Below are positions 1 through 14,575 of a stretch of DNA of 41,736 bases, piece by piece (position 1 is the stretch's first letter; each line of letters opens with the position of its first letter). Below the pieces are notes generated by a model. The model ran no database searches. It saw only the letters and a list, made by a program, of their open reading frames with translations, and had not been told where the DNA came from. The position numbers were made by a program, and so were the translations under genes. The DNA lies in NCBI GenBank assembly GCA_913020435.1, contig CAJVZZ010000023.1, forward strand, positions 1-41,736. Reading direction: 5' to 3'. This stretch comes from an uncultured Flavobacteriales bacterium. GTDB lineage: Bacteria > Bacteroidota > Bacteroidia > Flavobacteriales_G > Salibacteraceae.

Positions 1-1080
1 TGGGTAATTGTTCTTCATCCGAACTATTACGATCATGACTTTAAACTAGACCCCATTTTTGATGTTACTTTTAATTGCGTAGACCTGCTGACTTCCTCTA
101 CTCCATTTTCGCAGTTAAGTGTTCAGGTCCATAGCTTTACACCTTCTTTTTTCAAGCCATCTAAGCAAGAAAAATTTTGGGATATTCTTCATGTTTCCAG
201 AGCTCAAACGTCCAAAAACATTCCTGAATTTTTTGAAATTATCAGAAAACTCTACGATCAAGGTAAAATGTACCGCGTTTTATTAATATGCACTATTCCT
301 GATAAGAACTGGCTACGAGGAGATATCGTTTCAAATATCCGAGACTATTACGACGAACTATTCACTGAACCCGAAAAAGATCTTTTTACATTACTCACAA
401 CAAGCTACCGCCAACCTTATCCGTTCGACACAAAAACGATTTCGCATTTTTACAATTCTAGTAAAATACTTTTGAACACTGGAGGTGGAGAGCGGCAAGG
501 AAGAATAAATGCATATGCATGGTGCACTGGAATGCCACTAGTTTCATTAGATAGAATGAAGGATTTGATTCCGCATCACTTGCGCAAAGAACCCGTATTT
601 TATCCAGGTAAAACCTATAATGATTTACCTGAGCAGGTAATAAAAGCAATTGAATACAGCGATACCAAGCACAATCTTGACGATTTTGAAGAAATGTATC
701 ATCACTGTTCAGAAACATTTAATGAGACTACATTAAAGAAAGAATTAGCTAAGTTTTATTCAGTTGACAATACCGTTGCTGATGATTCCTTATTTAACGT
801 TACTAACTTAGACCGTCGTGTTGCTCGTCATTGTGGAGTTGGGGATAACATTACCAGCGTAAATGTCCCGCTTACTGAAGTTCTTGGATTTCTGGAAAAC
901 GCAACAAATGAGCAGCTTGAAAAGCTTATTCTAGCTATTGACCCAGAGCGTGAACTTGAACAAATGAGACATATTAAAAACGGGAAAAATCCTGAGGTTT
1001 CCGGCTTTATCTATGTTTCTAAAAATTTTGTTCGGGCAATCCTAATGCGCATTTATAAAAAATATTTTAAGAGTAAATAA
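1..1080 (+). CDS. Glycosyltransferase, 5' end outside window (partial)
   Basis: The reading frame is open from base 1 to the stop at 1078-1080, so the gene begins upstream of the window; the internal ATG at 268 is not a credible start because the residues before it continue the same fold. About 359 residues are visible. The stretch HVSRAQTSKN (just before residue 70) looks like the start of the second Rossmann half of a GT-B enzyme. A later segment, GGGERQGRINAYAWCTGMP, resembles the nucleotide-sugar binding loop of GT4-type enzymes. The C-terminal ~100 residues are charged and end in a Lys-rich tail. It lies 12 bases before a methyltransferase on the same strand, and both face a nonulosonic acid locus, which fits a role in surface glycan assembly. 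Donor and acceptor cannot be told from the sequence. Confidence 0.7.
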   Translation, partial: WVIVLHPNYYDHDFKLDPIFDVTFNCVDLLTSSTPFSQLSVQVHSFTPSFFKPSKQEKFWDILHVSRAQTSKNIPEFFEIIRKLYDQGKMYRVLLICTIPDKNWLRGDIVSNIRDYYDELFTEPEKDLFTLLTTSYRQPYPFDTKTISHFYNSSKILLNTGGGERQGRINAYAWCTGMPLVSLDRMKDLIPHHLRKEPVFYPGKTYNDLPEQVIKAIEYSDTKHNLDDFEEMYHHCSETFNETTLKKELAKFYSVDNTVADDSLFNVTNLDRRVARHCGVGDNITSVNVPLTEVLGFLENATNEQLEKLILAIDPERELEQMRHIKNGKNPEVSGFIYVSKNFVRAILMRIYKKYFKSK

Positions 1081-1952: not shown

Positions 1953-2672
1953 TTATTCTAGAATGCCTTTCAAATCTCCACGTTTCATCAAGAATTCCAA
2001 CCAATCAAAATCGATGGGGTCATCGATATCAAAACAGTGATGATCAACCTTATAGACCATAGTTTTCTCAGCATAAGGAGTCGTTAATCCTTGATCGAAA
2101 AATGACTTTCGATACATATAAAAGGAACCGTTTAACTCATAAACTTCAGGAGCAGTTTGACGTGAAATTACTTTTCCTCCACCGCAGGGAATGTGTCCAA
2201 AATCTCCGTTCATCTCAATCATATTGAAATAAGGATTTTTCTTAGCCTCTGAAACCGAAAAAATATTCAGAGCTTCAGCATTCGAATTCAGTTTATTGAA
2301 ACAATCTACTAATTCGTCAATAGTTCTTAGAGGGGCAACTACGTCTAAATCAATAACAACGTCGTATTCCTTATTCTCTTTTTTTTCTTTCCATTCTTTA
2401 AGTGCCTTTATAGTAAGCACCTTACTCACACTGCTGCCACTCAAATCATCTGGACGTACATATTCTACATCAACCTGACCCAAATGACTGATACAGTTTT
2501 TGATAATGTCGCTATCTGTCGAAACTGCAATATCAGCCCCTAACCTATCTGCAAGTTGAACCGCTTGTTCACTTGAATAAGTAACTAAAGGCTTGCCATT
2601 CAGATTCTTATAATTCTTTCCAGGAAGTCCTTTAGAACCGCCTCTAGCACAAATAGTAATTAGTGTATTCAT
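1953..2672 (-). CDS. neuA: CMP-nonulosonate cytidylyltransferase (NeuA/LegF type)
   Basis: A 239-residue protein of the acylneuraminate cytidylyltransferase family, which activates sialic, legionaminic or pseudaminic acid as the CMP-sugar in the cytoplasm. The nucleotide-binding loop ARGGSKGLPGKN is at residues 9-20. The usual LQPTSPLR stretch is present as DLDVVAPLR, a variant seen in some legionaminate enzymes. Later conserved parts are RQTAPEVYELNGS and FDIDDPIDF. The ATG overlaps the TGA of the upstream ptmE-like gene by four bases (ATGA), so it is the last gene of a coupled set. The exact sugar (Neu5Ac or legionaminate) cannot be fixed from this protein alone; the PtmE-like and LegC-type neighbours favour legionaminate or a relative. 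Confidence 0.88.
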   Translation of the reverse strand: MNTLITICARGGSKGLPGKNYKNLNGKPLVTYSSEQAVQLADRLGADIAVSTDSDIIKNCISHLGQVDVEYVRPDDLSGSSVSKVLTIKALKEWKEKKENKEYDVVIDLDVVAPLRTIDELVDCFNKLNSNAEALNIFSVSEAKKNPYFNMIEMNGDFGHIPCGGGKVISRQTAPEVYELNGSFYMYRKSFFDQGLTTPYAEKTMVYKVDHHCFDIDDPIDFDWLEFLMKRGDLKGILE

Positions 2673-3724
2673 GAAAGCAATTTCAGCTGTTTAATGTCTC
2701 TTTGAGCTTTTTCAAAATCTTCCATTTTACCAATGTCCAGCCAGTACTCCAAATGAGCGTAATGCATCACCTTCTTACCTTCTTTCTGAAGTTTTTCCAT
2801 TAAATCGGTAGAGTTGTAAAACTCACCTTCGGGAATCATTTCCAACAAACTGCGTTTAAGAAAGTATATTCCCCCATTAGAATAATAGGTATAAGTAGGT
2901 TTTTCTTTAAACGACTTTACGACATCATCTTCAGTTTCCAATACAGCATAAGGTATCTTCACCTCATAGGGTATCGAAACTAACCCCATATCAGCGCCAG
3001 AACTGATAAAAGCATGATAAAAATCTTCGTAATCTACATTGGTTATTAAGTCCGAATTCATCAAAAGAATAACATCTCTTTGGATCTCTTTTTCAGCATA
3101 CTTCAAAGAGCCAATTGTACCTAGCGGCACAGGTTCCTCAATATAATCAACCTGATGTCCGTATTCTGTAGTAGCTATATAATCCTTTATTTTTTGACCC
3201 AAATAATTAATCGAAATATGAAACTTTTGAACTCCAAACTTTCTTAGTCTTTCTATGTTCCATTCCATTACTGGTCGAGAACCAATTTTCAATAATGGTT
3301 TTGGCGTTTCTAAGGTTAATGGACGTAATCGACTGCCTAAACCGCCAGCCATAATTGCTACTTCGATTGGTAAAAAACTAAATTGTTCGCGAAGATCGAC
3401 TATTGATTTTAGCGTTCTATCTGCTGAAACTACCGGAATAATCTGAATGGATTTATCTTTTATCTCTCGCATTTTTTGAAGATTTTTTTCATCTTCATAC
3501 ATGAAATAACAATTTCGATTAATTACCTTTTCTAGAGTAGCATCCAACTCAAGATCATTCAGCAATGAACGACGAATATCACCATCGGTGATGGTTCCAA
3601 TGAGTTTATCATTTTCATCAACAGCAAAAAGTGTAACATACTTGGCTAAGCTATCTTGGTTGATTTGCTGCAAAGCTTGCTTAATCGTGCGGTCTGATTT
3701 TATTTTAAAATCTTGAAGATTCAT
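2669..3724 (-). CDS. ptmE: CBS-domain sugar nucleotidyltransferase (PtmE-like)
   Basis: A 351-residue protein with two CBS repeats in the first ~115 residues (for example GTITDGDIRRSLL) followed by an NTP_transferase domain whose signature AGGLGSRLRPLT with TPKPLL begins near residue 126. This arrangement matches PtmE, the glucosamine-1-phosphate guanylyltransferase of the Campylobacter legionaminate pathway, which makes the GDP-sugar precursor. A nine-residue longer reading is possible, but the ATG at 3724 overlaps the neuC stop as ATGA, the same junction used by the neighbouring genes, so I chose it. The CBS repeats may bind adenine nucleotides as a regulatory input. Other GDP- or UDP-sugar pyrophosphorylase activities remain possible. 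Confidence 0.82.
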   Translation of the reverse strand: MNLQDFKIKSDRTIKQALQQINQDSLAKYVTLFAVDENDKLIGTITDGDIRRSLLNDLELDATLEKVINRNCYFMYEDEKNLQKMREIKDKSIQIIPVVSADRTLKSIVDLREQFSFLPIEVAIMAGGLGSRLRPLTLETPKPLLKIGSRPVMEWNIERLRKFGVQKFHISINYLGQKIKDYIATTEYGHQVDYIEEPVPLGTIGSLKYAEKEIQRDVILLMNSDLITNVDYEDFYHAFISSGADMGLVSIPYEVKIPYAVLETEDDVVKSFKEKPTYTYYSNGGIYFLKRSLLEMIPEGEFYNSTDLMEKLQKEGKKVMHYAHLEYWLDIGKMEDFEKAQRDIKQLKLLS

Positions 3725-4821
3725 GCTAAATAATTTGTGATTGCATTCCAAATTTCAGGAACAGCTCCACCCTTCCAATAAATGTTTTCAATTTTCTCTT
3801 CAGGCAGTTTTTCAATGCGTTCTATTTCTTTCAATATTAGCGATTTTTCAACCGATAATGTTGTGACATTATTGCTCACCACTCTCCCCTTTTGACGGTT
3901 TCCTAGATTAATAACCCGTTTATTGAACGACGCTGCCTCAATAACTCCACTTGACGTATTTCCAAGCATAAACTCTGAATGCGTTATTGCAGAAAAATAT
4001 CCTTTCAAACCAAAGCTCTCAATCAACCTCACATTCTCGTTTCCTTCAGCAAAACCCTCATAGATTTTTCTAAAAGCCAAACCAGCGATATCTGCATTGG
4101 TTTGAGTAATCACTAATTGATAATTCTCAATGGATTTGAACGTTTTAATAAGTTCAGAAAGTTGACTTCTCCCAGCATCTTCTAACATAGTTTCAGGATG
4201 AAACGTAATTAAAATACTGGGAATTGAAAAATCTACCTTGAACCGTTCCAACATTTCCGATTTAGTAAAGGGCTGGAAAATTGATAAACTATCTAATGCT
4301 AAAGCACCAACCGTATGCACGTTTTTCAGAGATCCTCTTAACTGAGCAATCCTTTGGGAATATACTTCTGCGGAAGTAAAATGTAAATCACAAAATTGGG
4401 TCAATGAATGCCGGAACATATTGTCAAATGCGCCTGTTGTTTCTTCTCCACCATGAATATGCGCAAACTTCTGATGAAAAAACGCGCCAGCAGAAACAGC
4501 AGCAAACATCTCATAACGATCGCCCAAACATAGAACAAGATCAAATTTATTATCTGACCAAAACGATGAAAATGTTTCAGCCGTTTTAGCATAATTCAGA
4601 GCTACACCTTCACTGCTATCTTCAGCTTTAAAAGTGTCTAACTTATGAATATTACCGTTAAATGTTTTTTCAATTTCAGTTACTGAATTCCCAAAAGCAA
4701 TCGATGTATGCGCTCCAAAAGCGATTACTTCTAATTGGCAAGACTGTTTTTCTATAAACTGAATCAGCGGCTGATAAATGCCATAGTCTGCACGAGAGCT
4801 TGTGAGTAATCCTAATTTCAT
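3721..4821 (-). CDS. neuC: NDP-N-acetylglucosamine 2-epimerase, hydrolysing (NeuC/LegG)
   Basis: A 366-residue member of the hydrolysing UDP-GlcNAc 2-epimerase family. It starts with the typical TSSRADYGIYQPLI segment (residues 7-20). HGGEETTGAFDNMFRHS lies near residue 125 and the nucleotide-binding GNTSSGVIEA stretch is near residue 290. NeuC makes ManNAc from UDP-GlcNAc; the related LegG makes 2,4-diacetamido-2,4,6-trideoxymannose. The sequence alone does not separate these, but the adjacent LegC-type aminotransferase favours the LegG reaction. Both ends overlap neighbours by ATGA (4818-4821 and 3721-3724), indicating translational coupling. Confidence 0.88.
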   Translation of the reverse strand: MKLGLLTSSRADYGIYQPLIQFIEKQSCQLEVIAFGAHTSIAFGNSVTEIEKTFNGNIHKLDTFKAEDSSEGVALNYAKTAETFSSFWSDNKFDLVLCLGDRYEMFAAVSAGAFFHQKFAHIHGGEETTGAFDNMFRHSLTQFCDLHFTSAEVYSQRIAQLRGSLKNVHTVGALALDSLSIFQPFTKSEMLERFKVDFSIPSILITFHPETMLEDAGRSQLSELIKTFKSIENYQLVITQTNADIAGLAFRKIYEGFAEGNENVRLIESFGLKGYFSAITHSEFMLGNTSSGVIEAASFNKRVINLGNRQKGRVVSNNVTTLSVEKSLILKEIERIEKLPEEKIENIYWKGGAVPEIWNAITNYLA

Positions 4822-5840
4822 TTGAAATCGGAATATTCAAGTTTGTGACCTGATGGTAAATCTTTGAAAATCACCTTTCCTACAATATTTCTAAACCCCA
4901 TAGGGCTTATTCCATCTCCAGGACGCAGCATGGAAAAGTGAGATTCTTTTAGCTTTTCACCAGCTTTAAGTGCTTGATTTATATGAATTGATTTTCTAGC
5001 AATGGCAATGTTCTTTTTCTCTGATTCTGTTGGAATCTTTTTATCGGAACCTAAGCCTTCCTCTATATTTCTTATTGCAGAAACCATTTGTTTTAATTCA
5101 TCTGGCTCAAGCGATGCTGGATGATCTGGGCCAGGTAAAGTGCGATCTAGTGTAAAGTGTTTTTCAATTACTACAGCGCCTAATGCAACTGCCGCAATAG
5201 GTATTTCAATTCCAAGTGTATGATCTGAATAACCAATCTGAACTCCTAATGAGGCGATATCTTTCATTGCTCTTAAATTAACGTCCGAAAATGGTGTTGG
5301 GTATTCAGTATTGCAATGCAAAACTTTGATTTCAGATTTTTTATAACCGAAATTCAAAAATACTTGCAAGGCAGCTCCGACTTCCATTAGATTACACATT
5401 CCGGTAGAAAGTACAATTGGTTTTTTACTAGAAGCAAACTTTTCTAAGAGCGGCAAATTTGTAATCTCTCCCGAAGCAATTTTCCAAAAATCTAAATCGA
5501 AATCATTCAGCAAATCAAAACTATCTACATCAAATGGAGTGGATAAAAAACCTATTCTTTTGCTTTTTGAATAATCAGCAAGTTCCTCGAATTGAGCTTT
5601 ACTAAATTCTAACTTTTTGAGCATTCCGAACTGACCTTCATCTTCGCTCAAATTCAGATTATTCTTTTGATATTCTGCCATTTTAGCTGCAGAAGATGTT
5701 AGCTTTTCCGTCTTAAACGTCTGAAATTTAACGTAATCAGCATTTGCACCAGCGGCAGCATCAACTAACTTTTTAGCGAGTTCAAAATCACCGTTGTGAT
5801 TGACTCCTGCTTCAGCTATGATTATCGTCTTTGGTCGCAC
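4818..5840 (-). CDS. neuB: Nonulosonate synthase (NeuB/LegI)
   Basis: A 340-residue protein with the NeuB TIM barrel followed by a C-terminal antifreeze-like SAF domain. Conserved barrel parts are AEAGVNHNGD (residues 9-18), VKFQTFK, STGMCN, HCNTEYP and GYSDHTLG, with EKHFTLDRTLPGPDH near residue 230. The SAF domain occupies roughly the last 60 residues. The enzyme condenses a hexosamine with phosphoenolpyruvate to make sialic, legionaminic or pseudaminic acid. The start codon is GTG at 5840, nine bases after the aminotransferase stop, and the stop overlaps the neuC start. The length is normal for the family. Confidence 0.92.
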   Translation of the reverse strand: MRPKTIIIAEAGVNHNGDFELAKKLVDAAAGANADYVKFQTFKTEKLTSSAAKMAEYQKNNLNLSEDEGQFGMLKKLEFSKAQFEELADYSKSKRIGFLSTPFDVDSFDLLNDFDLDFWKIASGEITNLPLLEKFASSKKPIVLSTGMCNLMEVGAALQVFLNFGYKKSEIKVLHCNTEYPTPFSDVNLRAMKDIASLGVQIGYSDHTLGIEIPIAAVALGAVVIEKHFTLDRTLPGPDHPASLEPDELKQMVSAIRNIEEGLGSDKKIPTESEKKNIAIARKSIHINQALKAGEKLKESHFSMLRPGDGISPMGFRNIVGKVIFKDLPSGHKLEYSDFK

Positions 5841-5849
5841 AATATAAAT

Positions 5850-7007
5850 TTAAAGCTTTGGACTACTTGTTATGTTCACTATTCTATCTGCTAACCAAAT
5901 CGAGTTGGTAAGATCAGTAGTTTGACATTCTTTAAACATTGGTAATTCATTCATCAATGTCCATGCAGGCCGTGTCATTATGCCATTACTATTAGTTGCT
6001 TCAAGAAATTCGTCGCGTTCTGCTCTATCAGAAAGTAGAATGGTATTTAACCAATAATTGGTTTTGTTAGGTGCTTGCTCCGTCTTGAATTCAATAGATT
6101 TATCACTAAAGAACTCAATATATCTGCTGGTTAGTTCTCTTTTTGAAGCCAATAAAGTAGGTAGTTTTTCCAATTGCGCCTTCAATAAACTTGCATTGAG
6201 GTTTGGCATTCTATAATTATAGCCCATTTCATCATGAACGTATTCCCACTTATGCGGCACTTTTGCTGTAGTAGTTAAATACTTCGCTTTTTTGGCCAAC
6301 TCTTCGTCGTTGGTTAGTATTGCACCACCACCACCTGCAGTGATTACTTTGTTACCATTAAAGCTCAACACTCCAAGTAAACCAAAAGTCCCTAAGTGCT
6401 TTCCATCAACAAAAGAACCTACTGCTTCAGCAGAGTCCTCGACCAAAGGAATGTTCCATTCATCACACACCGCTTTAATTTCGATTATAGACGCTGCAAA
6501 ACCATAAGTGTGCATAGGTGTAACAGCACTTATTCTTTTGCCAGAGGTTTTATTAAAACATTGCCCATTTTTCAATTCAGCATTAATTTCTAAAAAATCG
6601 CGCAAACTTTTAGGACAAAGCCCCATGTTTTCTTTGTCAACATCAACAAAAACAGGAATGGCTCCGTTATACAAAATAGCGTTTGTAGTTGCAACAAAAG
6701 TCATGGCTTGTGTAATAACTTCAGTATCCTTTTCAACGCCAGCTAACCTCAACGCTACTTGTTGAGCAGCAGTTCCATTTACAACCGCAACAGCATATTT
6801 TGCTCCAGTGTACTCAACAAGCATTTTCTCGACCTCATCGATTTGTTTTCCTACGCTAGAAACAAACGTACTTTCAATGCATTCTTTTAGATACTGTTGC
6901 TCGACATGATCGAAAACTGGAATATGAAGGGGATAAAAATCCTCTTTACCGTAAAAATCTTCTAAAATGGATTTTAATCCATTAACTATTTCTAAACTTA
7001 TCATCAT
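5850..7007 (-). CDS. legC: LegC-family PLP aminotransferase
   Basis: A 385-residue sugar aminotransferase of the DegT/DnrJ/EryC1 fold. The PLP-binding lysine is predicted at K220 in SFNGNK, followed by a glycine run (AGGGGA); the ring-contacting aspartate is D191 in VEDSAEA. The ~30-residue N-terminal lead before HIPVFDHVEQQYL is typical of the LegC subgroup, which aminates C4 of a 4-keto-6-deoxy nucleotide sugar on the way to legionaminate. The first ATG (7007) overlaps the upstream SDR gene by 26 bases; ATG at 7004 is an equally possible start. Confidence 0.85.
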   Translation of the reverse strand: MMISLEIVNGLKSILEDFYGKEDFYPLHIPVFDHVEQQYLKECIESTFVSSVGKQIDEVEKMLVEYTGAKYAVAVVNGTAAQQVALRLAGVEKDTEVITQAMTFVATTNAILYNGAIPVFVDVDKENMGLCPKSLRDFLEINAELKNGQCFNKTSGKRISAVTPMHTYGFAASIIEIKAVCDEWNIPLVEDSAEAVGSFVDGKHLGTFGLLGVLSFNGNKVITAGGGGAILTNDEELAKKAKYLTTTAKVPHKWEYVHDEMGYNYRMPNLNASLLKAQLEKLPTLLASKRELTSRYIEFFSDKSIEFKTEQAPNKTNYWLNTILLSDRAERDEFLEATNSNGIMTRPAWTLMNELPMFKECQTTDLTNSIWLADRIVNITSSPKL

Positions 7008-7956
7008 CAGGATTTAAGATAACGCCATCTTTAATGACTTTATATAAATGTACAATCCCCTCAGGGACCGTGTAGGTTATATCAAAATCAAGAACCCTTT
7101 TTATTTTATCAAAATTGACTCTATAATCTCTTGGGTCTTCGTTCTTCTGAACGTATTTAATTTCACAACCTTCAATCACCTTTGAAATTTCTTCCACAAG
7201 CATTTTCTTGGTGTAATTCTCTTTTGTATTTCCTACGTTAAAGACCTCAAAAGCAACCTTATCATCGTCTGCTTTAATCACTTCAACAACCGCTCTCGCA
7301 AGATCTAAAACATGACAGTATGGCCGCCAAAATTGCTCTCCAAAAATCACTAATTCTCTGCCTAAAGCAAGTTCTTTGGTAAATTCATTTACCGTAAGGT
7401 CAAAACGCATTCTAGGCGACAAACCGTAAACCGTTGAAAACCTTAAACAAGTAGGATTTGTAGTTGAAGAGCCCTTATGCCCCAATAAAAATTGCTCGTA
7501 GGCAACTTTAGTCTCTGCATAAAGTGATACAGGGGACAATTCAGATTCTTCGTTTAAAAAGAGTTCTGGATCACTCATCTTTCCATAATTACTGCAGGTA
7601 GACGAGAATACTAGTTTTTTTACTCCATTAGCATTAGCCTTTTCAAACAAGTATTTACTTGCATCAAGATTTACTGCCTTTGTCAACTCAGGGTCTATTG
7701 CACAAGCAGGATCACCAACAATTGCAGCTAAATGAGCTACATGCTGCACTCCTTCAAGTGCCTGATCAACAGTGTTTTTTTCTCTTATATCTCCAGTGAC
7801 TAATTCAAAATTAGGATCGTTCATCAATTCAATAATTGATTCACCCCCAAACATTAAACTATCTAATGTTCTGACTGCATATCCTTCTTTAAGAAGTAAT
7901 CTACAGACTATAGAACCTATATACCCAGCACCTCCAGTGACTAAAACCTTCTCCAT
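6982..7956 (-). CDS. NAD-dependent epimerase/dehydratase (extended SDR)
   Basis: A 324-residue extended short-chain dehydrogenase. The NAD-binding loop TGGAGYIGS is at residues 7-15, and the catalytic pair is Y146 and K150 in YAETK. The third site reads SSTCSNYG (119-124) and lacks the Asp-Glu pair that nucleotide-sugar 4,6-dehydratases carry after the Thr, so an epimerase or reductase role fits better than LegB dehydratase. It sits at the head of the nonulosonic acid genes and overlaps legC by 26 bases. The sugar nucleotide it acts on is unknown; it could belong to a second sugar of the same polymer. Confidence 0.78.
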   Translation of the reverse strand: MEKVLVTGGAGYIGSIVCRLLLKEGYAVRTLDSLMFGGESIIELMNDPNFELVTGDIREKNTVDQALEGVQHVAHLAAIVGDPACAIDPELTKAVNLDASKYLFEKANANGVKKLVFSSTCSNYGKMSDPELFLNEESELSPVSLYAETKVAYEQFLLGHKGSSTTNPTCLRFSTVYGLSPRMRFDLTVNEFTKELALGRELVIFGEQFWRPYCHVLDLARAVVEVIKADDDKVAFEVFNVGNTKENYTKKMLVEEISKVIEGCEIKYVQKNEDPRDYRVNFDKIKRVLDFDITYTVPEGIVHLYKVIKDGVILNPDDDKFRNS

Positions 7957-8030: not shown

Positions 8031-8831
8031 TTACTTATCAGACTTACGAAAAGGGCTAATATTCAAAAACTTATTCATCATGTTATCATTAATAAAATAG
8101 TCTTGATAAACATAGTTAGTCAAGGCATATCTCTCTCCTTTAATAAGCGGTTTACCTCTATGTATTCCTGAAGTATCAACCAACAAACAAGTTCCTTTTT
8201 TTGCTTGAAACTGAACCTTAGAATATTTCCCATTTTCTAAGATTTTATTGGCTTCTTCATCTGAAACTCGGTTTTGATCAAGCGCAACTCCATATTGATT
8301 GAATTCAAATAAAGTCCGTTTCCATTGAGTACCTTCTATATATTCAAAGGGACCATTGTTCCCATCAACATCACTCAAATAAACAATACTTTTAAACTGA
8401 TGAATCATATTCGTATCGCGGTGCCAGCCACCACCTGAACCTTTATTATTCCCAATGCCTTTAATTCGACCTGCCAATGTTGTTAACACTGTTGTATTTG
8501 CTTTTAAGTAGCGATTAGATAGATTGTGAAAACGTTTGTCTTCATTGAACTCTTTTATCTTTTCATCGAGTTTCTCTGAGAAGTAAATTCTACTATCTGC
8601 ACCTTCTTCATCATTCCAAATAGTAGTTGAGTTTTCTTCAATCAATTTGTCAATCCTAGCACATAAGTCATCGCATTGATCAGCAGAATAATAATTCTCC
8701 CAAACGTAGTATCCCTTTATTCTAATGCTGTCAATAATTTCTTCCTTTGCTTCAGCAATTGCTTCAAAGTTCTTTTTATGCAAAAGCTCTTGAACGCGCG
8801 CTTTATAGTATTCTATTACTGCTTTCATCAT
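8031..8831 (-). CDS. Phytanoyl-CoA dioxygenase (PhyH) family protein
   Basis: A 266-residue protein with the iron and 2-oxoglutarate site of the PhyH family: H137 and D139 in WHRDTN, H224 in SGIHRG and a candidate 2-oxoglutarate-binding arginine at R234. The family hydroxylates small molecules, lipids or natural-product intermediates. The ATG at 8831 overlaps the stop of the GT4 gene as ATGA, so it is tightly coupled to glycan genes. No PhyH step exists in the known legionaminate or sialate pathways, so it may oxidise a sugar, a lipid or a side group of the glycan. The substrate cannot be inferred. Confidence 0.8.
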   Translation of the reverse strand: MMKAVIEYYKARVQELLHKKNFEAIAEAKEEIIDSIRIKGYYVWENYYSADQCDDLCARIDKLIEENSTTIWNDEEGADSRIYFSEKLDEKIKEFNEDKRFHNLSNRYLKANTTVLTTLAGRIKGIGNNKGSGGGWHRDTNMIHQFKSIVYLSDVDGNNGPFEYIEGTQWKRTLFEFNQYGVALDQNRVSDEEANKILENGKYSKVQFQAKKGTCLLVDTSGIHRGKPLIKGERYALTNYVYQDYFINDNMMNKFLNISPFRKSDK

Positions 8832-10147
8832 GAAATATTATCTAACAAATTTACCAACCTTTTGGTCAGACATTCGCGATTAAACTTTTCAAATTCATGA
8901 TTTTGATTAGGATTAGTATTCTGGGTGGAATTAAAGGATTCTAATATGGTTTTTTTGATGGCTCCTACATTTCCAGCTTGATATTCGAAATTCCATCCAA
9001 CTTCGATTTGCTCCAATATCTCGGCAACATCTCCATCTTCATGACCAAATGCAATTACCGGTTTATTCATTGCCAAATACTCAAACAATTTTCCAGGAAT
9101 ATTGCCCTTACCAATCTCACTTTCAAAGGTTAAAAGTAGTAATAACGAAGATTTTGAATACCATTTTAGCACGTCTTCATGAGAAATGTACGGATGCACA
9201 TGTAAACAAGGTTTTAGATGTTCAAGTTGATTTAATTCATCCAAAACTCTAGCATCAATAGTTCCTCCAAGGTGCAATTCAAGTCTTGCACCAAAGGAAT
9301 TGTTTTCAGCACATAGGTCATTTAATGCACGCCAAAAATCTTTAGGATTCCTCATGTGATTAAGCAAGCCAAAATGACTAACAATGAACTTATCAATTGT
9401 AATACTTTCTAGCTTAACATCTTCTGCATCGTAGCCATTCGTAATTACCTCTACTCTACTAGCGCCCAATTCACTAAACATTTTGCCCCAGTTATTACTT
9501 ACTGTTAAGCACACATTTGATTTCGTTAATACCTGCTTTTCAAGATGCTCATATTTCTTCCTTGAGCTCTTTGAAATATTATAATCATCTAGCAAGTCTA
9601 ATTTTGACCAAGGATCTCTAAAATCGGCAATCCATGGAATATTCATATGCTTCTTTACTCCCAAGGCAATTAAATGCATGCTATGTGGTGGTCCCGTCGA
9701 GATTATTACATCTACAGGGTTTTCTTTTAGATAGGTTCTCAGAAATGAAACAGATTTATTAACCCAAAATATTTTAGGATCAGGAATAAATACGTTTCCC
9801 CTTACCCAAGAAGACACTTTAGACAAAATGCCTCCTTGTTTCTTATCTAAAATACCATTGTTCAGATTCTTATCAGCTTTTCCCCCTCTTAGTTTTTGAT
9901 AAAAACCATAAGGTTCCCAAATTGATGTTTTAATAACCTCTACCTCGGAAGGAATATCTTTCAAAAGAGAATCATCATGCACTTGATAGCTAGGATTCTC
10001 AGGGGTGTAAATTACTGGCTGCCAACCATTTTCGGGTAAATATTTAGAAAATTTAAGCCAACGCTGCACTCCACTTCCCGCGCTTGGAGGCCAATAATAG
10101 GAAATGATTAAAACTCGTTTCAAGTTAATCCTCTTCAATAGCTTCAT
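8828..10147 (-). CDS. GT4-like glycosyltransferase
   Basis: A 439-residue GT-B glycosyltransferase. The N-terminal acceptor domain starts with RVLIISYYWPPSAGSGVQRW, typical of this Bacteroidota subgroup. The donor domain contains VITNGYD, HPYISHEDVLKWYSKSSLLLL, and the nucleotide-sugar motif IPGKLFEYLAMNKPVIAFG near residues 355-373. The ATG at 10147 overlaps the YfhO-type gene by 23 bases; a TTG at 10123, three residues before the first strand, is an alternative start that would remove the overlap. It probably adds one sugar to a cytoplasmic lipid-linked intermediate. Confidence 0.85.
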   Translation of the reverse strand: MKLLKRINLKRVLIISYYWPPSAGSGVQRWLKFSKYLPENGWQPVIYTPENPSYQVHDDSLLKDIPSEVEVIKTSIWEPYGFYQKLRGGKADKNLNNGILDKKQGGILSKVSSWVRGNVFIPDPKIFWVNKSVSFLRTYLKENPVDVIISTGPPHSMHLIALGVKKHMNIPWIADFRDPWSKLDLLDDYNISKSSRKKYEHLEKQVLTKSNVCLTVSNNWGKMFSELGASRVEVITNGYDAEDVKLESITIDKFIVSHFGLLNHMRNPKDFWRALNDLCAENNSFGARLELHLGGTIDARVLDELNQLEHLKPCLHVHPYISHEDVLKWYSKSSLLLLLTFESEIGKGNIPGKLFEYLAMNKPVIAFGHEDGDVAEILEQIEVGWNFEYQAGNVGAIKKTILESFNSTQNTNPNQNHEFEKFNRECLTKRLVNLLDNIS

Positions 10148-12743
10148 TTCTTAATTGCATAAATAAGAATACAAATGCGCCAATCAATAATAATGCACTG
10201 GATACATAACCTATATTTGAGGTAATCTTGTAAGCTTTAGGCTCAAACTTCAAAACAATTTCTTTGGAATTAGCAGGGACATTAAGTCCTCGAAGCAAAT
10301 AATTAACCTTAGCAATCGGTTGTATTTCACCATCGATATATGCATTCCAACCGTCCTCATAATAGACTTCAGAAAAAACAGCAAAACCGTCTTGGATTAG
10401 GTTACAACTATAAACTAGTTCGTTTGCTTTATATAAGGTTTGAGTAATAGTTCCTTGACCTCCAGCCTTTATTCCTCCAATTTTTTCTACTGCACTAGTC
10501 TGCATGACAGCTTGTTTATACAAATCCATTTGAGCTAAAGCAGTAATCTCTTCATCTGCTGAATTCACTGTTTTTACTTCTTCTACAAACCACGCATTTC
10601 CATATGCATGCGGATTCTCAATTGCTGGTGCCTCAGGGTTGTATATAACGTATTTCGTATTGAGCATATTCAAGTATTTTCTTTTTGAAAACACCTGAAG
10701 AATATCAGCTCCTCCATTTTTCAAAGAAGCACCGATTGACCCAATCTCTTGGTTTAAATAGAAATCGATGAAATCTTGATACTTACCCAATTTTACCGCA
10801 GAATAACCACCAATACTCTTATGGAAAAACGAAGTTCTTGATTCATTAAAAGGATTATTTAGTTGGAAAACTCTGAAATTTGAATTTTGGTTGTATGTCT
10901 GGTATTTCTCATTTGTAATGAGGTAATTTTTAAATGATCTTTCCTCTTTACTTAGACCAGTACCAGCTTTTTGAGCCGCTTGAGCAACAAGTACATTTAG
11001 CTCTGGATTCTTTGCCATTTCATTATTGAGAATCGATTCGTCGGATGCATTTGGAAGATGCGCTAGAAAATAGGGTCTTTTCTTTTCCCAACGAACGTAC
11101 TTACCTCTAACTTTTTCGTTATTTACATAACGTTTATCGACCGTCCATAAGTCGACAACCGTTATTATTCCAATAGCTAATGCCAGTAAAATAATACTCT
11201 GTCTTTTTATAAAAATAAATGCTAATACACCCGATAGAAGAATTATAAAAATTGAACGAAAGGCATCTGCTGCAACTAAGCCAGTTCTGTAATCCAAGAT
11301 ACTATCCATCATTTTAACCACTTGACCAGAATTATTTCCACGATCAATTTGCTCAAATTGTGTCAATTCTTTAGGGCTGTAAAAATCAAAAAAGGAATCT
11401 GGCATAATAGCAAACGCCAATGTGATCAAAATTAGTCCGCCACTGACTGCCATCAATTTCTTTTTAAGCTTATTGTCCTTAAGCAACTCTGGCTTTTTCA
11501 TGAATTTATCTAGTACTAATACAGCGCTCAAAGGCACCAACATTTCTACAACTAATAAAGCCATTGACGGTGTTCTAAACTTACTATACATTGGAAGATA
11601 ATCCAACAATAATTCCGTAAACCACATTGTATTTCTTCCCCAAGAAATAAGCATAAATAATACCGTAGAAATAATTACCGGCCACTTGAACACGCCCTCT
11701 AAAACAAAGAACCCAAGTATAAAAAGTAATAACATAAATGCCCCTACATAAACAGGACCAGAGGTAAAAGGCTGGTCTCCCCAGTATGAGTTTATTTGTC
11801 TTCCACGCTCATACTCAGCAGCTCCAGAAGCTCCACCTTTAATATCCGGGATAATTAAGGACCATGTTTCACCTATTCCATAACTCCATTGAGTAAGGTA
11901 ATCGATGTCCAGCCCGCTAGTTTGATTTTTATTTTCAGTGCCTTGAGGATTAATTGTCAATTCACTTTTACCACGCATGGTTTCACTGGAATACTTGTAC
12001 GTATTGTACAACATAGCTGCATTGCACAATAGGGCTATTATACCAGCCACGACCAACACAGCAGTTTGCTTTAAAAACGCAGGAATTTGTTTTTCTTTAA
12101 TCGATTGAAACAAATAATAAGCACCAAAAACCAAGAGCATTAGCGCAAAATAATAAGTTACTTGAACGTGATTACTTAGAATTTCGAATGACATGAAAAC
12201 AGCGAATAATAGTCCACCTTGCATCAATTTTCCACGATAAACTTGAATAAAACCCGCTAAAGCAGCAGGCAAATATGCAATTGCATGCAATTTAGAATTG
12301 TGCCCTGCTTCTATAAGAATAGGAAAGTAGGAAGAAAACGCAAATGCAAAAGCTCCAACCATAGAAAGCCATGGATCAATTTTTAAAGTCAGGAGTAAGA
12401 TATAAAAACCTAAACAACAGAGAAATAAAAGCAGGTGAGGCCCTGAGTAGAATAGGCTCAGTATAAATCGATCTACAAAATGAAATAAGTTACTATCGTA
12501 CCTTGTAGCTATCTGATAGGCCGGCATTCCTGCAAACATTGCATCACTCCAGAGTGCTTCTTCTTCATAAACAGCCCTATGATCTTGAATAGATTTAGCC
12601 ATGCCCTTAAAGGAAGATATATCACCTTGAACTAAGGACAGTCCCTCCAAAACAGGACTAAAATAAATTAGTGGTAAAAGGTAAAAAAGCACAAATGCCA
12701 CCGCATGCGGGATAGCCTTTTTAAAGTCCAGATTCTTCAGCAT
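10125..12743 (-). CDS. YfhO-type multi-spanning membrane protein
   Basis: An 872-residue integral membrane protein with about a dozen hydrophobic helices in the first ~550 residues, a large soluble part, and a last helix near the C-terminus (SSALLLIGAFVFLFMQL). The pattern and the segment EDGWNAYIDGE near residue 810 match the YfhO family, which has a GT-C-like membrane fold. In Gram-positive bacteria YfhO proteins glycosylate cell-wall polymers; in Bacteroidota the role is not established. An outward-facing lipid-linked sugar transferase is an inference. It ends inside the GT4 gene and has a TAnnTTTG box 22 bases upstream. Confidence 0.8.
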   Translation of the reverse strand: MLKNLDFKKAIPHAVAFVLFYLLPLIYFSPVLEGLSLVQGDISSFKGMAKSIQDHRAVYEEEALWSDAMFAGMPAYQIATRYDSNLFHFVDRFILSLFYSGPHLLLFLCCLGFYILLLTLKIDPWLSMVGAFAFAFSSYFPILIEAGHNSKLHAIAYLPAALAGFIQVYRGKLMQGGLLFAVFMSFEILSNHVQVTYYFALMLLVFGAYYLFQSIKEKQIPAFLKQTAVLVVAGIIALLCNAAMLYNTYKYSSETMRGKSELTINPQGTENKNQTSGLDIDYLTQWSYGIGETWSLIIPDIKGGASGAAEYERGRQINSYWGDQPFTSGPVYVGAFMLLLFILGFFVLEGVFKWPVIISTVLFMLISWGRNTMWFTELLLDYLPMYSKFRTPSMALLVVEMLVPLSAVLVLDKFMKKPELLKDNKLKKKLMAVSGGLILITLAFAIMPDSFFDFYSPKELTQFEQIDRGNNSGQVVKMMDSILDYRTGLVAADAFRSIFIILLSGVLAFIFIKRQSIILLALAIGIITVVDLWTVDKRYVNNEKVRGKYVRWEKKRPYFLAHLPNASDESILNNEMAKNPELNVLVAQAAQKAGTGLSKEERSFKNYLITNEKYQTYNQNSNFRVFQLNNPFNESRTSFFHKSIGGYSAVKLGKYQDFIDFYLNQEIGSIGASLKNGGADILQVFSKRKYLNMLNTKYVIYNPEAPAIENPHAYGNAWFVEEVKTVNSADEEITALAQMDLYKQAVMQTSAVEKIGGIKAGGQGTITQTLYKANELVYSCNLIQDGFAVFSEVYYEDGWNAYIDGEIQPIAKVNYLLRGLNVPANSKEIVLKFEPKAYKITSNIGYVSSALLLIGAFVFLFMQLRNEAIEED

Positions 12744-12802: not shown

Positions 12803-14575
12803 TCATTTCAATAAATCAAGTTGATTATCTATTTCCTCCCAGGTTCTTCTGGCTACATTTCCATCTACTTTGAAAAAATTCTTCGAGATAAATCCACTAA
12901 AATTTTCCACCATTTCCAAAGAATGACTCTCTAATCTTGCAATTTGAAATTGGAGTTCTTCAGAATTAAAACATTCCTGAGCAATTCCTTCAGCCGAGTA
13001 TCCTGCAATATCTTGTTGTAAAGGATCTATCGTAAGTAGTGGATTATTAAAAAATACAGTTTCTGCTCCAACAGTAGAAAACGCCGTTATTGTAGCCTTT
13101 GATTTTGCCAAAAGATCATATAAATCGGCATTCTCTTCAACCGAACAATTTGGTAATTCTTGGAATTTATGAAATAAATTTTTTCCAATTTGTTTAGGAT
13201 GTGGTTTCAAAACAAACTGCTCATTCGGTGAGTTTTTTATTGCCTCAAAAGCAATTTCATCAACTTGCCTCAGTAAACTTTTATTAGGTATGGGTTGAGA
13301 AGCATAGAGAATAAATTGTTTGTGGTCCGTATGTCTATCTTTTATTTTTTTAAGAACATCAGTACGCAACTGGCCAACTGTTCTCATTCGTTCTGCAGGC
13401 AATTCAAATTTTTCAATGATAGCCGCTTTCCATTTCTCCCCCCACACAAACTGCAACTGAGGATAGGAAGAAAATTTATGATCTTTACTATTGCTTAAAT
13501 AAGCTGCAGAGTGATCAACTATTGCTCCATGTTGATTCCCAACGCTAAGCAATCCCTTGGTTTCCCCTGCCTGCCAGAACGCTCTTGCAAAAGGATTATT
13601 CTCATCACGAGAAATTGCAACTTTATTCGATTTAGAAAAAACAGCTTGGTAGCAATAAAATCGGAATAAATGAAATCGGAAATAATTCCAATTACTTTTT
13701 ATTTCACTAAAAATAAATGCATCACCTCCTTCTATTTTCCATTGCTCTAGTTGGTTAAGTAACTTACCCGAACAAGAAATAGTTTTTCTTATTGGTGAAA
13801 TTGCGAGCATACCTTTCAATAGAATTGCTTCACTCCAAACTGCATTCTTTGCCTTAAATTGAGTCTCAAGTGAACTACTTGAAATTTGTTTTGGTAATTG
13901 AAAATCTAGAATTATTGCACTTTCATCAGTTTTACTGCTCTCTAAAAAACTCAGAACAGGATTAAAGTATCCTTTTGATTCACCATCAATCGAAAGTAAC
14001 TGTACCATAGATCGATCATACAAAAACACATATTTCGCTTTTGACAATATCGACAACTTTGTCCAATTGAATAAAGCATTTTTCAAAAACTGAACTCCCA
14101 ATAAAATCAGATCACCAGCACCGCTTTTTTTACTACTTGAATTTACAGAAGCTCTTTGAAAAGAAATCTCATTCGAATTTAACTCAGAATTGGAGACTGA
14201 ACTATCTGAAATCACTAAAAGTGATTTTTGATTTTCAGCTGGAACTAACCTGATTTTGGTTTTGAGTAATTCCGAATCTATCATTGAATGGTAAACCCGA
14301 AATTTAGAAAAATGCCAAAGGGTATGATTTTCATCGAAAACTAACCTTTCCGATAATGATTTACCTTGATATTTATGATGGGCCTCCTTTAAAACTTTAG
14401 AAGATACCTTATCATAAACTGCTTTTTGTTTGTCTTTTGAAAAATCAAGAACTGTGGAAGGGAATTCAGAAAAAGACTTTAAAGAGAAAACGGTTCCTTG
14501 AAAATTGAGCAATTTATCACTAGTTGGCTTTTTGGGCGCGTCTAATACAAGAATATTATGATAGTTACTAAACAC
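12803..14575 (-). CDS. Large GT-B-like protein with KPHPK motif; possible nonulosonate transferase
   Basis: A 590-residue protein without signal peptide or clear membrane helix. The C-terminal half resembles CDP-glycerol glycerophosphotransferases and the HP-motif glycosyltransferases that use CMP-sugars: GNQHGAIVDHSA at 346-357, LYASQPIP at 423-430, KPHPK at 457-461, and a Ser/Thr-Glu loop FSTVGAETVFFNNP at 499-512. The first ~250 residues are low in recognisable motifs and contain a Ser-rich segment (121-153). It lies 59 bases upstream of the YfhO-type gene and 37 bases after the DUF4834 gene. Given the CMP-sugar genes downstream, it is the best local candidate for the transferase that uses the product. 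That is inference; glycerol-phosphate or Kdo transfer are alternatives. Confidence 0.55.
   Translation of the reverse strand: MFSNYHNILVLDAPKKPTSDKLLNFQGTVFSLKSFSEFPSTVLDFSKDKQKAVYDKVSSKVLKEAHHKYQGKSLSERLVFDENHTLWHFSKFRVYHSMIDSELLKTKIRLVPAENQKSLLVISDSSVSNSELNSNEISFQRASVNSSSKKSGAGDLILLGVQFLKNALFNWTKLSILSKAKYVFLYDRSMVQLLSIDGESKGYFNPVLSFLESSKTDESAIILDFQLPKQISSSSLETQFKAKNAVWSEAILLKGMLAISPIRKTISCSGKLLNQLEQWKIEGGDAFIFSEIKSNWNYFRFHLFRFYCYQAVFSKSNKVAISRDENNPFARAFWQAGETKGLLSVGNQHGAIVDHSAAYLSNSKDHKFSSYPQLQFVWGEKWKAAIIEKFELPAERMRTVGQLRTDVLKKIKDRHTDHKQFILYASQPIPNKSLLRQVDEIAFEAIKNSPNEQFVLKPHPKQIGKNLFHKFQELPNCSVEENADLYDLLAKSKATITAFSTVGAETVFFNNPLLTIDPLQQDIAGYSAEGIAQECFNSEELQFQIARLESHSLEMVENFSGFISKNFFKVDGNVARRTWEEIDNQLDLLK

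Follow-up and report, generated by a model that had tools for sequence, protein, structure and literature searches.

A putative CMP-nonulosonate glycosyltransferase with an HP motif encoded at the head of a sugar biosynthesis run in an uncultured Flavobacteriales bacterium

The genes for the biosynthesis of nonulosonates (NulO), the sialic-acid-like sugars of bacteria, are easily recognised in genomes; the enzymes that attach these sugars are mostly unknown, and very few have been described. In GT38 and GT80 sialyltransferases the HP motif binds CMP-Neu5Ac, and the D/E-D/E-G motif is essential in NmB-polyST (PMC2169525). Tannerella forsythia GtfS (445 aa) and TFUB4_00887 (442 aa) were characterized by knock-out and mass spectrometry as transferases of pseudaminic acid (Pse) and legionaminic acid (Leg), respectively; both have D/E-D/E-G and HP motifs, and without GtfS the terminal Pse residue is missing (PMC6120980, PMC6388019). 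The Tannerella enzymes are said to contain a TagB domain (PMC7439481). SpsB of Bacillus subtilis, encoded in a Leg operon, has DEG and HP motifs, yet it is dispensable for Leg transfer (PMC7439481). An HP motif is also carried by the retaining Kdo transferases, in which the Asp of a QxxxD motif is the nucleophile (PMC10148158).

The window analysed here is one entire contig of 41.7 kb, from an assembly of 50 contigs. As described in an earlier note on this DNA, the target gene heads a run on one strand that ends in CMP-sugar synthesis. The run comprises ten minus-strand genes that overlap or lie no more than about 75 bp apart:

12803–14575, minus strand, target, putative CMP-nonulosonate glycosyltransferase, 590 aa, GTG start
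10125–12743, minus strand, YfhO-like membrane protein, 872 aa
8828–10147, minus strand, GT4-type glycosyltransferase
8031–8831, minus strand, PhyH-type (2-oxoglutarate) dioxygenase
6982–7956, minus strand, SDR-type NAD-dependent epimerase/dehydratase
5850–7007, minus strand, LegC-family aminotransferase (NCBIfam 515 bits, cut-off 420)
4818–5840, minus strand, NeuB/NnaB-type nonulosonate synthase (NCBIfam 449 bits, cut-off 400)
3721–4821, minus strand, NeuC-type hydrolysing 2-epimerase (NCBIfam 319 bits, cut-off 236)
2669–3751, minus strand, CBS-nucleotidyltransferase, PtmE-like
1953–2672, minus strand, CMP-sugar synthetase, PseF-related (NCBIfam 77 bits, under the cut-off of 206)

The plus strand across 12803–14575 is full of stops, and the 590-aa ORF lies on the minus strand. 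Its GTG start is also kept in L002, a 94%-identical relative from a Flavobacteriales UBA6770 MAG. The other genes of the run gave no match to GT38, GT42, GT52 or GT80 (by Pfam; the CMP-sugar synthetase by NCBIfam), in agreement with the earlier claim that no other protein of the locus resembles a sialyltransferase. The further glycosyltransferases of the locus are the GT4 of the run and, at the contig edge, a GT4-like protein. The gene of the latter (window 1–1080) is truncated by the left contig end, with its frame open from base 1; a full-length copy of 402 aa is present at L083:16150–17358.

With LegC, NeuB (NnaB type) and NeuC all scoring above their NCBIfam cut-offs, the run appears to yield a CMP-activated sugar of legionaminic type. 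No LegH-type N-acetyltransferase was recognised in the run (window 1953–7956) and the SDR protein scored poorly, at 89 bits, against the LegB model (cut-off 475); the product of the run may therefore be an unusual derivative.

Homologues of the target were found by whole-genome search in 12 of the 35 genomes of its taxonomic family (in one case as a weak match only), and the 395 genomes of the class yielded about 12 full-length members. A sample of the phylum contributed four members of a distant clade. No family member was detected in viral contigs (scanned with profile A1, built from 13 proteins) or in plasmids (tblastn).

The conserved positions were determined in an alignment of 24 proteins, 20 core members including the target and the four distant ones. 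E325, H349, G350, Y359, G379, G401, Q427, H459, P460, S500, E505 and D522 are invariant in all 24. Identity to the target is mostly 19–25%, so these positions reflect real constraint; the motifs, unvarying across such divergent members, constitute a real signature of the family, and their origin by chance was ruled out. The protein length of 590 aa and the sequential arrangement of GNQHG (346–350), KPHPK (457–461) and the Ser/Thr-Glu loop STVGAE (500–505), as first reported from the sequence, were all confirmed. The features of the signature are:

13601–13603, minus strand, E325 of a GGDDE-type motif (SRDE in the target), invariant in 24/24, candidate base or substrate ligand
13526–13534, minus strand, QHG (348–350), H and G in 24/24, at the place of D/E-D/E-G in GT38/52/80 sialyltransferases
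13358–13375, minus strand, GQLRTD (401–406), shared by the majority of the 20 core members, not conserved in the distant clade
13295–13297, minus strand, Q427, invariant
13193–13207, minus strand, KPHPK (457–461), HP motif, H459 and P460 in 24/24
13061–13078, minus strand, STVGAE (500–505), S500 and E505 in 24/24
13010–13027, minus strand, D517...D522, D522 in 24/24 and D517 in 23/24
12845–12865, minus strand, DGNVARR (571–577), C-terminal DG-x4-R motif, common to the BFO_1060 family

The comparison with CMP-sugar glycosyltransferases that carry an HP motif, from which the motif order had been read, holds for the HP motif and the Ser/Thr loop, but not for D/E-D/E-G, which is replaced by QHG. 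Like the GT38, GT52 and GT80 sialyltransferases, the target has both of the former elements, its CMP-sugar donor being deduced from the neighbourhood, and its relatives show weak matches to such families (PF07388 in 5/13 and PF07922 in 2/13 proteins of profile A1). It differs from them in length and N-terminal part and in giving no significant match. Membership of the target in GT38/52/80 was rejected because D/E-D/E-G is absent.

In its letters, QHG is nearer to the His-Gly of TagF-type enzymes. The target could accordingly be read as a TagF-like transferase of a polyol phosphate from a CDP-polyol onto a glycan: the His-Gly at the D/E-D/E-G place, the HP motif and the Ser/Thr loop resemble those of CDP-glycerol phosphotransferases, and one relative, L008, passes the Pfam cut-off of PF04464 (34.2 bits against 22.1), as well as those of PF05159 and of the polysialyltransferase family PF07388. 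However, the target itself is unmatched by PF04464, no gene for CDP-glycerol or CDP-ribitol synthesis was recognised in the run, which is predicted to make CMP-NulO, and the linkage of the family is with NulO synthesis and with CMP-sugar synthetases. A TagF-like activity is therefore regarded as highly improbable.

No significant Pfam match was obtained for the target, and searches of PDB sequences with the target and with profile A1 retrieved no relative. The best NCBIfam match of the target was NF046086, the BFO_1060 family glycosyltransferase (61.3 bits, E 8.7e-17, below the cut-off of 200), and TIGR04396 was also matched below threshold. All 13 proteins of profile A1 match both models (NF046086 with 3e-23 at best). 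Alignment of A1 with six BFO_1060-type proteins by hhalign (98.3%, P 2.4e-14, 280 columns) placed the HP motif, the S/T-x-x-x-E loop and DG-x4-R in register, which confirms at sequence level that the target family is homologous to the BFO_1060 family over the C-terminal 280 residues. The target thus probably belongs to an unnamed family that is distant kin of BFO_1060.

Both kinds of protein are found in NulO loci of Bacteroidota, but the target has 590 aa, compared with about 440–465 aa in the BFO_1060 family, and QHG where the latter has S/T/A-E-G. Approximately 285 N-terminal residues of the target family are extra or different and have no counterpart in the BFO_1060 profile alignment. NF046086 and Pfam matches are likewise confined to the C-terminal half, which bears out the remark that the N-terminal part of about 250 residues has no recognisable motif. 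A literature search for BFO_1060 retrieved no paper. BFO_1060 in the NCBIfam name is a Tannerella-style tag. From this style of tag, the fitting length and the member of genome G280, located directly downstream of pseI like gtfS, NF046086 is likely to be the family of GtfS and TFUB4_00887.

Among the 13 proteins of profile A1, weak matches to GT-B families were frequent (PF04464 in 9, PF05159 in 9, PF02350 in 10); in the profile search of the class, PF07388 gave one match and PF05159 none. These matches of the relatives support a GT-B fold for the target, and they do not tell the GT-B families apart. An AlphaFold prediction from a two-sequence alignment (target and L002, 94–95% identical) reached a pLDDT of only 31 over the full length and of only 43 over the C-terminal 229 residues.

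PF05159 (Capsule_synth), the family of KpsC and KpsS, also bears on the mechanism. A retaining NulO transferase of the Kdo/Pse type (GT99/GT107/GT118-like), acting through a covalent Asp intermediate, would differ from the reading favoured below in mechanism and not in substrate. The target family resembles KpsC, WbbB and KpsS1 (GT107, GT99 and GT118) in its HP motif (PMC10148158) and in its presumed CMP-sugar donor, and one of these enzymes, KpsS1, transfers Pse with retention (PMC12887879). The PF05159 matches of several members are weak, however, and the target itself has none. Moreover, the QxxxD nucleophile of those enzymes is not conserved at its expected place behind the first strand of the C-terminal domain: Q427 is invariant, but position +4 is N, H, D or another residue in the 24-member alignment, the equivalence with QxxxD being one of sequence and not of structure. 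A retaining mechanism is considered quite unlikely and, because no conserved Asp occupies the nucleophile position of the retaining Kdo transferases, the reaction would more likely be inverting.

Flanking sequences were retrieved for 19 core relatives, giving 20 core loci with the window. NeuB, the NulO synthase, was located within 10 kb of the family gene in 16 of the 20 core genomes and at 17 kb in G141; in G010, G016 and G047 it is on another contig than the family gene, and in G016 a CMP-sugar synthetase adjoins the family gene. The linkage to NulO synthesis extends over several bacterial families. As a control, the 155 best-scoring GT4 (PF13692) genes among the matches listed were inspected in 18 of the core genomes, and a strong NeuB was within 10 kb of only two of them. 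Fisher's test of 16/20 against 2/155 among the matches listed gives about 4e-17, a value that is only indicative because the control was counted by eye and the loci, from related genomes, are not independent.

The homologues are not mostly from genomes that lack a CMP-sugar synthetase, an outcome that would have counted against the initial proposal. A CMP-sugar synthetase was found within 10 kb in 13 of the 20 core loci, directly adjacent in five of them from three bacterial families, and a NeuB gene in all 24 genomes carrying a family member, compared with 262 of the 395 genomes of the class. No NulO gene was present within the fetched flanks of the four genomes of the distant clade, and the association with NulO therefore belongs to the core family. 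BFO_1060-type genes are also located in NulO loci (6/6). Gene linkage alone does not distinguish the NulO transferase of a glycan from other glycosyltransferases acting on that glycan.

The strongest argument for the handling of the NulO by the target comes from a genome of the same genus, G032. Its slot beside carB contains PseB, PseF, PseG and PseI, all above cut-off. Genes for a PseH-like protein, a formyltransferase and a PIG-L protein accompany them, as does a family member that lies in the opposite orientation and shares just 27% identity with the target. The neighbours in the window and in G032 are 67% (PhyH), 63% (GT4), 66% (YfhO) and 95% (CarB) identical. The tree contains long branches and numerous unresolved forks, and just two of its loci are clearly of Pse type. 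In it, a branch with support 98/99 separates the target from the G032 member, so the two are not simply diverged copies. The family gene differs with the donor pathway while the flanking genes stay at 63–67%; therefore, the glycosyltransferase changes with the donor, and the family gene was replaced together with the NulO donor pathway while the GT4 was not.

This exchange also bears on the possibility that the target acts on the same NulO glycan with another donor, for example adding the sugar that precedes or follows the NulO, with the NulO itself moved by the GT4 or by the edge GT4-like protein. The donor is not readable from operon linkage alone, the family genes of G010 and G047 have no NulO genes nearby, and the edge GT4-like gene (window 1–1080; full length in L083) is also strongly different in the exchanged cassette of G032. 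On the other hand, this edge gene occurs in only two family loci, with one further weak match at L068. An HP-type signature is characteristic of enzymes with CMP donors and is not known from GT4 proteins. The GT4 of the run was rejected as the NulO transferase: it stays 63% identical while the NulO switches from Leg type to Pse type and therefore does not follow the donor. B. subtilis SpsB, likened here by description, has a TagB-like domain and shares with the target the Leg operon and the HP motif, but its knock-out keeps Leg (PMC7439481), a warning that such motifs can mislead on function. Overall, a different donor is judged unlikely.

The explanation we favour, as probable, is that the target is a cytoplasmic GT-B-type glycosyltransferase moving the NulO (probably of legionaminic type) from the CMP-NulO of the neighbouring genes onto a lipid-linked or membrane-bound glycan, presumably one of the cell surface. 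Neighbourhood, co-exchange with the NulO pathway and BFO_1060 kinship lend support, well past that of the motifs, to the core of the earlier proposal, a NulO transferase carrying an HP motif; the enzymatic activity is putative. The CMP-activated nonulosonate supplied by the neighbouring genes would be the donor, its CMP moiety held by H459 of the HP motif with S500, T501 and E505. Either E325 or H349 may activate the acceptor hydroxyl. The acceptor, a lipid-linked or membrane-bound glycan, would be recognised by the N-terminal half, which is unlike the BFO_1060 family, and membrane attachment could be provided by a hydrophobic stretch with basic flanks at about residues 156–181.

With about even confidence, we propose an unnamed Bacteroidota family of dedicated CMP-legionaminate/CMP-pseudaminate transferases, with QHG in place of the D/E-D/E-G base, a long N-terminal part of its own, and exchange between genomes within complete sugar cassettes at a fixed chromosomal slot. 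Such a family is not a new kind of chemistry; it is useful for annotation, as a signature that tracks the donor pathway would make NulO transferases assignable in many Bacteroidota. The exchange of Leg and Pse types at one slot offers a ready enzyme pair for studying how donor specificity is set.

Several additional observations were made in the loci. The Pse cassette of G032 contains formyltransferase-like and PIG-L deacetylase genes (L047:6789–8154), which suggests that its Pse is formylated or otherwise modified. Of the members without NulO genes nearby, L051 (G010:C2) and L056 (G047:C71), the former is beside sulfotransferase-like and Wzx genes. YfhO-like, GT4 and/or PhyH genes recur beside members (window 8031–12743; L047, L052, L058, L060, L063, L084 and L089). 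This set, which spans several bacterial families and is frequently accompanied by a Wzx-type flippase, may represent one conserved glycan pathway of Bacteroidota. An unusual fusion beside NulO genes, a LegC-like aminotransferase of approximately 470 aa with an N-terminal CBS domain, is encoded at L049:14238–15659, and fusions of similar length occur in L050, L052, L057 and L063. Finally, the Wzx-like flippase gene of G033 (L083:12378–13797) is in two overlapping frames of 402 and 114 aa, owing to a frameshift or an assembly error.
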